Part shown: positions 9,115 to 12,558 of the stretch, piece by piece
Layout: each line of letters opens with the position of its first letter
Position numbering within the stretch: the stretch's first letter is position 1
Assembly: GCA_027490915.1 (NCBI GenBank)
Contig: JAIXXG010000091.1
Coordinates: 1-32,499, forward strand
From: Microbacteriaceae bacterium
Lineage (GTDB): Bacteria; Actinomycetota; Actinomycetes; Actinomycetales; Microbacteriaceae
DNA length: 32,499 nt
Direction: 5' to 3'
Program-made: the position numbers and the translations under genes
The notes under the pieces: generated by a model
Databases searched by the model: none
What the model was told of the DNA's origin: nothing
What the model saw: only the letters and a program-made list of their open reading frames with translations

Positions 9115-10178
9115 CCCTTCAGCGTATCCGCGCCCGCCCGGCCCGCGCCGGGGGCCAGCGTCGTCAGCAGCCGCTGCAGCGAGTCGAGCCGCTCGGCCCC
9201 GAAGTCGCCGAGCTCGCCGGAGGCCGCAGCCTCGACGATGGCGCAGTCGGGCGCGTCGGGCAGGTGGGTGCAGCCGCGGGGGCACTGCTCGCCGATGACG
9301 GCGAGGTCGCCGAACGCGCGCAGGATGTTGTCGGGGTCGACGTGCCCGAGCCCGAACGAGCGCACGCCGGGGGTGTCGATGATCCAGCCGCCGCCCGGCA
9401 GTCGCAGCGACACGGTCGACGACGAGGTGTGACGACCGCGCCCGGTGACGGCGTTGACGACCCCGGTCGCGCGATGCGCGTCGGGCACGAGCGCGTTGAC
9501 GAGCGTCGACTTGCCGACCCCCGAGTGGCCGACCGCGACCGTGGTGCGGTCGCGCAGCAGCGCGTGCAGCGCCTCGACCGGCGGGGCATCGGAGCGGCTC
9601 TCGACCACCCGCAGGTCGAGGCCGCGGAACTGCGCCAGGAACGGCGCGGGGCCGGCGAGGTCGGTCTTGGTCATCACGAGCACCGGCTCGATGCCGGCGT
9701 CGAACGCGGCGACGAGGTACCGGTCGACGAGGCGCGGCCGCGGCTCGGGGTTCGCCGCCGCGACGACCACCATCAGCTGGTCGGCGTTGGCGACGATGAT
9801 GCGCTCGATGGCGTCGGTGTCGTCGGCGCTGCGGCGCAGCAGCGTTCGCCGCTCGTGCACGCGCACGATGCGCGCGAGCGTGCCCTCCGCACCCGAGGTG
9901 TCGCCGACGAGGTCGACGCGGTCGCCCGTGACGATCGCGGTCGACCGCAGCTCGCGGGCGCGGGTGGTGATGACGGAGCGCTCGGTAGGGGCATCCTCTT
10001 CGACGAGGCAGAGGTAGCGGCCGCGGTCGACGGTGACGACTCGCCCGACGACGGCGTCGTCGTGCGCCGGGCGCTGCTTCGAGCGCGGGCGGTTCGCCTT
10101 CGGGTTGGGGCGCGCCCGCACGAGCGACTCGTCGTACGCGTCGTACGGGTCGTCGTCGTCGGGCGGCAGCCAGCTCAT
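9111..10178 (-). CDS. rsgA: Ribosome small-subunit-dependent GTPase RsgA
   Basis: Circularly permuted GTPase that takes part in late 30S subunit assembly; 355 residues. An acidic/basic N-terminal extension is followed by an OB fold (about 42-115). The permuted G domain shows G4 T-K-T-D (170-173) before G1 GHSGVGKST (217-225) and G3 D-T-P-G (268-271). The zinc finger has Cys299, Cys303, His305 and Cys312 (CPRGCTH then C). The start is the ATG at 10178, which overlaps the aroA stop by 4 nt (ATGA); the reading frame continues open upstream only because of base composition. It is the middle gene of aroA-rsgA-hisN. Confidence 0.95.
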   Translation of the reverse strand: MSWLPPDDDDPYDAYDESLVRARPNPKANRPRSKQRPAHDDAVVGRVVTVDRGRYLCLVEEDAPTERSVITTRARELRSTAIVTGDRVDLVGDTSGAEGTLARIVRVHERRTLLRRSADDTDAIERIIVANADQLMVVVAAANPEPRPRLVDRYLVAAFDAGIEPVLVMTKTDLAGPAPFLAQFRGLDLRVVESRSDAPPVEALHALLRDRTTVAVGHSGVGKSTLVNALVPDAHRATGVVNAVTGRGRHTSSSTVSLRLPGGGWIIDTPGVRSFGLGHVDPDNILRAFGDLAVIGEQCPRGCTHLPDAPDCAIVEAAASGELGDFGAERLDSLQRLLTTLAPGAGRAGADTLKG

Positions 10179-11578
10179 GCGGGCGGAGCCGCCTGGTCGA
10201 GCATCGCCGCCCACAGCTGCGCGAACTGGGGCAGGGTCTTCGCGGTCGATCCGATGTCGTCGACGCGCACGCCGTCGACGGCGAGGCCGATGATCGCCCC
10301 CGCCGTTGCCATGCGGTGGTCCTCGTAGGCGCGCCACGGTCCGCCGTGCAGTGGTCGCGGCTCGAGGGCGAGCCCGTCGTCGAGCTCGGTGCAGGCGCCG
10401 CCGAGAACGCTGATCTCGGCGGCGAGGGCCGCGAGCCGGTCGGTCTCGTGGCCCCGCAGGTGGCCGATGCCGGTGATGGTGCTGGGCCCGCCGGCGAGCG
10501 CGGCGAGCGCGACGATCGCGGGCGCCAGCTCGCCGCCGGTTGAGAGGTCGAGCTCGACGCCGCCGACCGCCGCTCCACCGAGGAGGCCCGCACCGCCATC
10601 GACGACGAGGGCGTCGCCGTCACGGCGCACCGTCGCCCCGAAGCGCGGCAGCAGGTGCGCGAGGTCGGCGCCCACCTGGGTGGTCGCGGTGGGCCAGCCC
10701 TCGACGGCGACCGTTCCCCCCGCGATGACGGCGGCGACGAGGAAGGGCGCGGCGTTTGAGAGGTCGGGCTCAATGACGACCTCGCGACCCCGGATCGGTG
10801 CGTGCGGAACGACCCACACCGCGGGCTCCGGGCTCTCGACGGTGACGCCGCGGTCGGCGAGGGTGGCGATGGTCATCTCGATGTGCGGCATGGAGGGCAG
10901 GCGCTCGCCGGTGTGCCGCAGCACGAGGCCCTCGGTGAAGCGGGGCGCGGCCAGCAGCAGCCCCGAGACGAACTGGCTGGAGGCCGAGGCGTCGATCGCG
11001 ATCTCGCCCCCGCGCACGGCACCCGAGCCCCAGAGGCTGAACGGCAGAGCCCCGCGACCGTCGTCGTTGACGTCGACGCCGAGAGCGCGCAGCGCGTCGA
11101 TGGTCGTGCGCATCGGGCGGCGGCGCGCGGCCTCGTCGCCGTCGAACGCCACCGGTCCGAGGGCGAGCGCGGCGACCGGGGGCAGGAACCGCATGACGGT
11201 GCCCGCGAGCCCGCAGTCGATCGAGGCGCTGCCCGACAGCTCGGCGGGCGGGGTGATGCGCAGGTCGGCGCCGTACGCGCCGTCGCCCTCGACCTGCTCG
11301 ATCTGCACCCCGAGCGCGCGCAGCGCCTCGATCATGAGCATCGAGTCGCGCGAGTGCAGCGGGCGGCGCAGCAGGGAGGGGCCGTCGGCGAGGGCCGAGA
11401 GCACGAGCTCGCGATTGGTGAGGCTCTTCGACCCGGGCAGGCTGACGCGCGCCGCGAGGGGCCCCGTCGCTCGGGGGGCGAGCCAATCGCCGTCGGTCGG
11501 AAGGGCAGCGGAGTCGCCGGGGCGCTGCTCGTCGCCGTAGGGCGAGAACCGGGCGCCGGAATAGGTGAAGACCTGCAT
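10175..11578 (-). CDS. aroA: 3-phosphoshikimate 1-carboxyvinyltransferase (EPSP synthase)
   Basis: Shikimate-pathway enzyme that joins phosphoenolpyruvate to shikimate 3-phosphate. The 467 residues are somewhat longer than usual (about 430), because of a tail of about 35 residues before the conserved W-x-A-P. Active-site signature LPGSKSLTNRELVL starts at 47 (Lys51), D-C-G-L-A-G-T-V-M-R-F-L-P-P is the second EPSPS signature, and R-G-H-E-T-D-R-L is near the end. The ATG at 11578 lacks a Shine-Dalgarno sequence, but TACCCT ends 8 nt upstream (11592-11587 on the minus strand), consistent with a leaderless start. The ATG lies inside the SigR-type promoter of the divergent sigR gene. First gene of a coupled operon with rsgA and hisN. 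Confidence 0.95.
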   Translation of the reverse strand: MQVFTYSGARFSPYGDEQRPGDSAALPTDGDWLAPRATGPLAARVSLPGSKSLTNRELVLSALADGPSLLRRPLHSRDSMLMIEALRALGVQIEQVEGDGAYGADLRITPPAELSGSASIDCGLAGTVMRFLPPVAALALGPVAFDGDEAARRRPMRTTIDALRALGVDVNDDGRGALPFSLWGSGAVRGGEIAIDASASSQFVSGLLLAAPRFTEGLVLRHTGERLPSMPHIEMTIATLADRGVTVESPEPAVWVVPHAPIRGREVVIEPDLSNAAPFLVAAVIAGGTVAVEGWPTATTQVGADLAHLLPRFGATVRRDGDALVVDGGAGLLGGAAVGGVELDLSTGGELAPAIVALAALAGGPSTITGIGHLRGHETDRLAALAAEISVLGGACTELDDGLALEPRPLHGGPWRAYEDHRMATAGAIIGLAVDGVRVDDIGSTAKTLPQFAQLWAAMLDQAAPPA

Positions 11579-11583
11579 CGGTT
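11558..11583 (+). promoter_or_regulatory. SigR/SigH-type autoregulatory promoter of sigR
   Basis: GGAAT (11558-11562), 18 nt, then GTT (11581-11583). This is the consensus promoter of SigR in Streptomyces and SigH in mycobacteria. It points at sigR, and transcription would begin near 11590, upstream of the GAGGAG at 11634-11639. It overlaps the start of aroA on the other strand. Confidence 0.75.
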
Positions 11584-11644
11584 ATCAGGGTAACGGCACC
11601 GCACGGGTGCCCGCCGTGCCCACGACGCGCCGAGAGGAGCCCCC

Positions 11645-12322
11645 ATGCCGACAGGCCTGCTGGATGCGCCGCCCGCGCCGCGCGTGCAGACCCGCTCGCT
11701 AGACTCGCGGGCGATGTCTGACACGACCGATGAGCTCGCCGAGCGCCGCCGCCTCTTCGAGGAGCAGGCGCTGCCGTTCATGGACCAGCTCTACGGCGCG
11801 GCCATGCGGATGACCAAGAACCCCGCCGACGCCGCCGACCTCGTGCAGGAGACGTTCGTCAAGGCGTTCGCCGCGTTCGGCCAGTTCGAGCAGGGCACGA
11901 ACCTCAAGGCGTGGCTCTACCGCATCCTGACGAACACGTTCATCAACGTGTACCGCAAGAAGCAGCGCGACCCCTACCAGGGCACCATCGACGACCTGGA
12001 GGACTGGCAGCTCGGCGGCGCCGAATCGGCGACGTCGAGCACGACCCGCTCGGCCGAGGCCGAGGCGATCGACCGCATGCCCGCGAGCGCGGTCAAAGAC
12101 GCCCTGCAGGCCATCCCCGAAGACTTCCGCCTGGCGGTCTACCTCGCCGATGTCGAGGGCTTCGCCTACCAGGAGATCGCCGACATCATGAAGACCCCCG
12201 TCGGCACCGTCATGAGCCGGCTGCACCGTGGCCGCCGGCTGCTGCGCGAGCTGCTCGCCGATTACGCGCGTGAGCGCGGCATGACCGCGAGCACCGCCCC
12301 GACCCGAAGGAGCACGCGATGA
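11645..12322 (+). CDS. sigR: SigR/SigH-type ECF sigma factor of the thiol-stress response
   Basis: ECF sigma factor that turns on thioredoxin, mycothiol and proteolysis genes when thiols are oxidised. Numbered from ATG 11714 (202 residues), region 2 runs about 18-84 ([14 protein letters not shown], then [12 protein letters not shown]) and region 4 about 125-180 ([20 protein letters not shown], then [14 protein letters not shown]). Two starts are credible. ATG 11645 has GAGGAG 5 nt upstream and would be used from the SigR-type promoter. ATG 11714 has TAGACT (11700-11705) 8 nt upstream and could be a leaderless short form. Streptomyces SigR also has a longer isoform made from its autoregulated promoter. 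The stop overlaps rsrA by 4 nt. Confidence 0.93.
11700..11705 (+). promoter_or_regulatory. Candidate -10 box for leaderless short sigR
   Basis: TAGACT fits TANNNT and ends 8 nt before the ATG at 11714. It would supply SigR at a basal level, independent of the SigR-type promoter at 11558-11583. No clear -35 box is seen. Confidence 0.45.
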
Positions 12323-12558
12323 GCGACTGCGGCTGCGACAAGGCCAAGGCGGAGCTCGAGGAGTTCCTGCACAACGAGCTCAGCCCCGATCAGTGCCAGG
12401 ACATCCGCGACCACATGGCCAACTGCGACGACTGCTCGGCCGAGCACCTCGTCGGGGTCACCCTGACCACGAAGGTCAAGGAGGCCTGCCAGGAGAAGGC
12501 GCCCGACGAGCTGCGGGCGATGATCCTGGGCTCCATCGAACGGCTGGATGCCCGCTAG
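12319..12558 (+). CDS. rsrA: RsrA/RshA-type redox-sensing zinc anti-sigma factor
   Basis: A 79-residue anti-sigma factor of the ZAS family that holds SigR in the reduced state and releases it when a disulfide forms. The core H-x3-C-x2-C is His32, Cys36 and Cys39. Cys6 lies 26 residues before His32, the spacing of Cys11 and His37 in S. coelicolor RsrA, so Cys6-Cys39 is the expected trigger disulfide. Cys26 and Cys57 match RsrA Cys31 and Cys62 with the same offset of 5. Cys4 is an extra residue next to Cys6. The ATG overlaps the sigR stop by 4 nt, giving coupled synthesis of the pair. Confidence 0.93.

Follow-up and report, generated by a model that had tools for sequence, protein, structure and literature searches.

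A SigR-type promoter, two in-frame sigR starts and an interlocked aroA start compared across Microbacteriaceae

The production of two isoforms from two promoters is already known for the sigma factor SigR of Streptomyces. According to passages of PMC5472188 and PMC4921905, the sigR-rsrA operon of Streptomyces coelicolor has an upstream autoregulatory promoter as well as a downstream promoter for the short form, and the long form, SigR′, is unstable because of its extension. In Mycobacterium tuberculosis, sigE (sigEp1/sigEp2) and sigH (sigHp1/sigHp2) similarly have a downstream promoter and an upstream one of the SigH/SigE type, and sigEp1 gives a leaderless mRNA (PMC4921905, in part). The sigH-rshA pair of Corynebacterium glutamicum is of the same ECF/anti-sigma kind (PMC3489674, in part). 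The locus described here resembles that of S. coelicolor in that an ECF sigma factor gene with its putative rsrA-type partner is preceded by a putative autoregulatory promoter (p2), an in-frame upstream ATG and a downstream promoter (p1). It differs in the start of the short form, which in the Streptomyces sources is an RBS with GTC and here an ATG that lacks a Shine-Dalgarno (SD) site and follows a leaderless-type -10, and in its extension of 23 amino acids, compared with the 55-58 reported there. The leaderless case of M. tuberculosis, in contrast, concerns the paralogue sigE, and the passages of PMC4921905 considered do not mention an aroA overlap. C. glutamicum sigH is reported with an ATG and RBS, unlike the SD-free short start here. 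A leaderless p1 is thus not universal, since both C. glutamicum sigH and Streptomyces use an RBS according to these sources.

The window, i.e. the whole stretch of 32,499 nucleotides that was analysed, comes from a 2.57-Mb genome; all family comparisons refer to Microbacteriaceae. The nearest SigR is that of a Microcella MAG locus (98% identical), and two named Microcella species are among the next matches, so that we read the window as Microcella, Microbacteriaceae. With 308.7 bits the sigR product lies above the cutoff of TIGR02947 (SigH_actino, 251.55); the gene encodes an actinobacterial SigH/SigR ECF sigma factor. The product of the following gene scores 55.0 bits against TIGR03988, which is under the cutoff of 62.5, and 30.9 bits against zf-HC2 (cutoff 22.2); by eye, its translation contains HX3CX2C, which we take to be the RsrA-type anti-sigma motif. 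In C. glutamicum, rshA has its own SigH-dependent promoter. On the 5′ side of sigR lies the divergent aroA, whose start codon at 11578 falls between the -35 and the -10 of p2. We consider it likely that the region controls a SigR-RsrA thiol-stress operon, with two promoters that would choose the form of the protein, and that this explanation holds as a whole. The features are as follows.

10175..11578, minus strand: aroA, 3-phosphoshikimate 1-carboxyvinyltransferase (TIGR01356, 357.5 bits, cutoff 287.25)
11558..11563, minus strand: aroA codons 6-7 (TAT TCC, Tyr-Ser), coinciding with the p2 -35 GGAATA
11558..11583, plus strand: p2, sigRp2-type promoter GGAAT-N18-GTT, conserved, predicted to be SigR-dependent and autoregulatory
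11587..11592, minus strand: leaderless-type aroA -10 TACCCT (AGGGTA on the plus strand), 8 nt before the aroA ATG
11589..11592, plus strand: predicted p2 transcript start, about 6-9 nt past GTT, deduced from the promoter type
11634..11639, plus strand: GAGGAG, SD site of the long form, by direct reading
11645..11713, plus strand: 23-codon N-terminal extension of the long form (SigR′), with a selected tag within residues 1-9 and an apparently neutral linker after it
11645..12322, plus strand: long reading frame of sigR (225 amino acids; the short form from 11714 has 202)
11700..11705, plus strand: TAGACT, the -10 of p1; the short-form ATG at 11714 follows after 8 nt
12319..12558, plus strand: gene for a putative rsrA-type anti-sigma factor, its start overlapping the sigR stop

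By direct reading, p2 is composed of GGAAT (11558-11562), an 18-nt spacer and GTT (11581-11583). Part of PMC4803200 gives GGAAYR-N17-18-GTT as the optimal SigR promoter, and counted in the same way p2 is GGAATA-N17-GTT, a match. The preliminary description had placed p2, GAGGAG, both ATGs and TAGACT at coordinates that all prove right on direct reading. It had also proposed that p2 is SigR-type and autoregulatory, which the comparison supports, and had named loss of the promoter and of the extension in close relatives as grounds for refutation; the relatives compared show no such loss. Within the genus, SigR was matched in 25 of 26 genomes and p2 is kept in 24 of the 25 loci; the 25th (L016) is cut by a contig end yet keeps the end of the promoter. 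In the family sample, SigR was found at E 1e-60 in 144 of 149 genomes, and 199 loci were gathered, some of which represent one organism in two collections. The exact pattern GGAAT-N17-20-GTT occurs within 420 nt 5′ of the sigR core in 192 of them. L016 and L133 are incomplete at contig ends, L141 and L182 have the pattern further upstream, L162 has a one-base variant of the -10, and p2 is absent from L186 and L195 (2/199). Removal of duplicates left 181 unique promoter-bearing family loci. Their -35 reads GGAATA (170), GGAATT (6) or GGAATG (5), and the spacer after GGAAT is N18 in 139, N19 in 21, N17 in 20 and N20 in one. Since GGAATA-N16-18-GTT occurs 14 times on both strands of the 2.57-Mb genome versus none for the reversed control pattern, and since p2 recurs in 192/199 family loci, the pattern is beyond chance. 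At the level of sequence comparison, the observed promoter arrangement is confirmed as real.

It had further been proposed that ATG 11645 starts a protein of 225 residues and the inner ATG 11714, in the same frame, one of 202, and the comparison agrees: an in-frame long start follows p2, and the short form has its own putative promoter. As long-form start we took the earliest start codon past the predicted p2 start that has an SD-like tetramer. By this rule, 12 of the 181 loci have none; of the other 169, 153 have this start in the sigR frame and 16 have it out of frame. When 5-base SD matches were required, 108 of 113 starts were in frame and 68 loci had no such match; in a sample of about one locus per genus (55) the ratio was 41/46, with 9 loci lacking a start (binomial p 5e-15). 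The stretch from p2 to the core is free of stops in frame 0 in 168 of 181 loci, in frame 1 in 54 and in frame 2 in none; this test is weak for frame 2, because the TAG/TAA of the p1 -10 itself closes it, and only the comparison with frame 1 is informative. An extension could be assigned in 170/181 loci and has 3 to 52 codons (median 22). The long form is very probably translated, judging by the spacing changes counted on a tree (below). The sigR match of one family genome (L174, G093) contains a TGA.

The last codons of the extension overlap p1. Here, the Streptomyces type of short start (an RBS, AGGAGGTG, with GTC) is replaced by an ATG without SD site, with TAGACT 8 nt upstream. In all 181 unique promoter-bearing family loci, a TANNNT hexamer precedes an in-frame ATG at a distance of exactly 8 nt; as a control, TANNNT occurs 5-10 nt upstream at 1,217 of 29,807 other positions. 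A clear p1 -35 was not found by eye in the window. An SD-like tetramer is missing before the short-form ATG in 170 of the 181 loci. As most short starts are SD-free, the natural reading is that the short-form mRNA is leaderless or nearly so, and the earlier proposal of a leaderless short form thus gains comparative support.

It is important to note that the 8 nt between the p1 -10 and the ATG are coding sequence of the long form. Single-base indels in this spacer would therefore break the long form. We counted minimum changes on one tree of 168 family loci. The p1 spacing requires 0 changes, being 8 in every locus, compared with 35 for the spacing of the aroA -10, 85 for extension length in codons and 65 for leader length modulo 3; the last two values treat 8 unassigned loci as missing and become 91 and 72 when these are counted as a state. 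Across the class, and with duplicates and loci with fewer than 350 bases upstream excluded, the spacing is 8 nt in every one of the 228 loci for which p2, p1 and an extension were scored (180 from the family, 48 from outside). Of 20 loci scored without an extension, a small and phylogenetically clumped set, 11 have 8 nt, 8 have 7 nt and one has 9 nt. The difference between loci with and without an extension gives a Fisher p of 2e-11, with loci treated as unrelated and with 16 loci left out that have no p1 by the rule (L186, L232, L235, L250, L252, L253, L254, L256, L257, L259, L260, L265, L267, L281, L284 and L286). Three members of the no-extension set were kept as scored: L162, which plainly has an extension, and L185 and L196, which have three-codon ones. 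Most 7-nt cases and the 9-nt case come from one small-genome family (L262, L269-L276); L277 and L278 of the same family have p2, the extension and 8 nt. A spacer frozen in this way could mark promoters that are translated through, and the genomes can be searched for other genes that have it.

As a separate matter, we considered whether 8 nt is simply the optimal distance for a leaderless start. In aroA 8 nt also predominates, but other values occur (among 168 loci 8 nt in 101, 9 nt in 44 and 7 nt in 23). Because aroA also uses 7 and 9, this idea alone is insufficient for 228/228. The loci L262 and L269-L276 lack both an exact GGAAT-type p2 and an in-frame extension but have kept the p1 -10 at 7-9 nt.

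The content of the extension was compared between close relatives. Codons 2-9, compared in 35 disjoint close pairs, have 53 nonsynonymous and 37 synonymous changes, a nonsynonymous fraction of 0.589 against 0.75 expected, and only 1 of 1000 randomisations was as low. From codon 10 onward, 99 nonsynonymous and 22 synonymous changes (34 pairs) give 0.818 against 0.806 expected; the sigma core as control gives 86 and 329, i.e. 0.207 against 0.793. We thus rejected strong conservation of the whole extension, as purifying selection is seen at codons 2-9 only; the three codon positions differ only slightly in their number of substitutions (100, 72, 107; chi-square p 0.025). Judged by these substitutions, the extension consists of a short N-terminal tag under selection, confined to codons 2-9, and a neutral linker. 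Since it is neutral from codon 10 on, most of the extension may be tolerated rather than functional. Examples of the tag are MLATLER, MTAVLERP and MTTLLLDAP. A hydrophobic-acidic-[RAPH] triplet within residues 2-11 occurs in 106 of 167 family extensions (shuffled mean 17.4, maximum 32). Outside the family 12 of 50 loci have it, near-duplicates included (shuffled mean 2.43, maximum 8); 38 do not, and these sequences were known before the motif was chosen, so that a class-wide tag motif is suggestive only. If the Streptomyces analogy is followed, the tag most likely serves as a degradation signal and would render the stress-amplified form short-lived; it can be named as a degron candidate. In the short forms of L141, L177 and L182 the sigma core is preceded by a long N-terminal tail of about 90 to 115 residues, which in the translation of L177 is acidic.

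The preliminary description had also noted that p2 overlaps the aroA start, and the family agrees with the window in this respect. Of 181 unique family loci, 170 have within the p2 spacer a CAT usable as aroA start; all 170 were first counted as aroA ATG, and 164 proved to be in frame and open to aroA. In the 11 loci whose spacer has no CAT, the aroA N-terminus extrapolates beyond the -35. The p2 -35 is in phase on aroA codons 6-7 in 168/170 loci and spells TATTCC in 159/170, and in 167/170 the variation in p2 spacer length is matched by the number of noncoding bases (1, 2 or 3) that separate CAT from GTT. A predicted stress promoter inside the first aroA codons is found in most family relatives examined. 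The Tyr codon TAT is rare: among 50 Tyr codons in four open reading frames of the window it occurs once, at aroA codon 6. We add the aroA -10 to the earlier description. It overlaps the predicted p2 transcript start, and TANNNT stands 7-9 nt before the aroA-type ATG in 168/170 family loci. Because the -35 coincides with aroA codons 6-7 and the predicted p2 start lies on the aroA -10, two polymerases should be unable to hold the p2 and aroA promoter DNA together. Synonymous removal of a promoter located inside codons would probe both autoregulation and the exclusion at aroA.

The promoter, both starts, the in-frame extension, the selection on the tag and the interlock are demonstrated by sequence comparison; transcript starts, isoform switching, instability and aroA repression are inferred, along the following lines. 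Basal transcription from p1 (TAGACT) would yield a leaderless or nearly leaderless mRNA and hence the 202-residue SigR. Under thiol stress SigR would be freed from RsrA, and SigR-RNA polymerase would start at p2. The resulting leadered mRNA would carry the SD site that directs synthesis of the 225-residue SigR′, and it would give mostly the long form because the inner ATG has no SD site. The choice of form would then follow a simple rule, in which leaderless mRNA means short protein and p2 mRNA means long protein. If the tag acts as a degradation signal as in the Streptomyces analogy, the stress-amplified SigR′ would be short-lived. Finally, p2 being interlocked with the divergent leaderless-type aroA promoter, the two polymerases would not be bound at the same time.

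Alternatively, both sigR starts could be served by one leadered mRNA, p1 being no promoter and TAGACT mere coding sequence. The missing p1 -35 in the window would fit; however, TANNNT keeps its distance of exactly 8 nt in all 181 loci despite varying neighbour codons, a -10 precedes the start even in the 20 loci scored without an extension, and the short starts mostly lack an SD-like tetramer; we regard this reading as very improbable. A better case can be made for the long form being stable and the extension a by-product: p2 would simply add SigR, and an RBS-bearing start must lie upstream somewhere. The neutrality from codon 10 and the variable length of the extension favour such a by-product, whereas the purifying selection at codons 2-9, the excess of the tag motif over shuffled sequences and the instability of SigR′ reported in the passages on Streptomyces (PMC5472188, PMC4921905) argue against it, and on balance we find it unlikely.

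Concerning aroA, the overlap may reflect compaction and have no regulatory effect, both promoters having become locked together in a short intergenic region so that they rarely separate, and we hold the chances of this to be even. The 11 loci in which p2 exists without a spacer CAT are in line with compaction. Placement of the -35 on codons 6-7 in 168/170 loci, though Tyr TAT is rare, speaks against it, but the same placement is equally expected from keeping p2 alone. The preliminary description had suggested that the extension may alter stability and that stress could reduce aroA transcription; the comparison shows a selected N-terminal tag and a physical interlock, and both consequences are possible. 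That the region is a two-way switch, with its -35 drawn from aroA codons 6-7, in which freed SigR shuts aroA and amplifies a tagged, short-lived form of itself, is a possibility that we put forward tentatively.

Of 78 unique loci from outside the family, 10 carry a divergent aroA within the upstream sequence retrieved. It lies far from p2 in L209, L210, L219, L220 and L224 and ends near p2, with a possible overlap, in L277, L278 and L285; L276 and L283 have no p2. L285 also has a CAT in the p2 spacer and is a possible second case of the interlock. Among the loci sampled the interlock characterises the family, though it is perhaps not exclusive to it. L259 and L260 combine GGAAT-N18-GTT and an upstream ATG with a GTC that has a strong AGGAGG-type RBS, as published for Streptomyces; from the GTC and RBS they are taken to be Streptomyces, and aroA was not seen in the upstream stretch fetched for them. 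Fifty out-of-family loci, counting near-duplicates, have p2, p1 and an extension. A start codon lies 7-11 nt after GTT in at most 28 of them, an upper figure since the start rule favours this range; in L236, by eye, a later start is the better fit. In 19 loci the start is exactly 9 nt after GTT; 20 loci have an SD start and 2 neither. In some of these loci (L209-L288) the long form itself may be leaderless.

A literature search found nothing joining aroA with SigR, and nothing on leaderless starts in Microbacteriaceae. Within the literature searched, the new elements are the proposed choice of form through a leaderless mRNA, the frozen spacer, the short selected tag and the use of aroA codons as a -35. 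Kim et al. 2009 reportedly treated SigR′ in actinomycetes, and both this work and Kim et al. 2012 may cover part of the present findings. With this comparison, the SigR/SigR′ feedback design of Streptomyces reaches across an entire family and into many others of the class.

Apart from p2, the genome of the window has 13 other SigR-type sites, and the downstream proteins of four were scanned. They are DsbA-like (L008), a DUF4193 protein (L299), a glyoxalase fold (L296) and a flavin reductase (L297). A DUF1684 gene follows a separate consensus site, and trxB-trxA were recognised downstream of L298 by reading the translation, without a scan; no convincing gene was picked downstream of L291 and L294. 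Thiol genes near these sites fit the SigR regulon of Streptomyces. The gene start at L293 is nearly identical to that of the DsbA-like gene at L008; both have SigR-type promoters and lie near contig ends, and the pair is possibly a repeat or an assembly duplicate.
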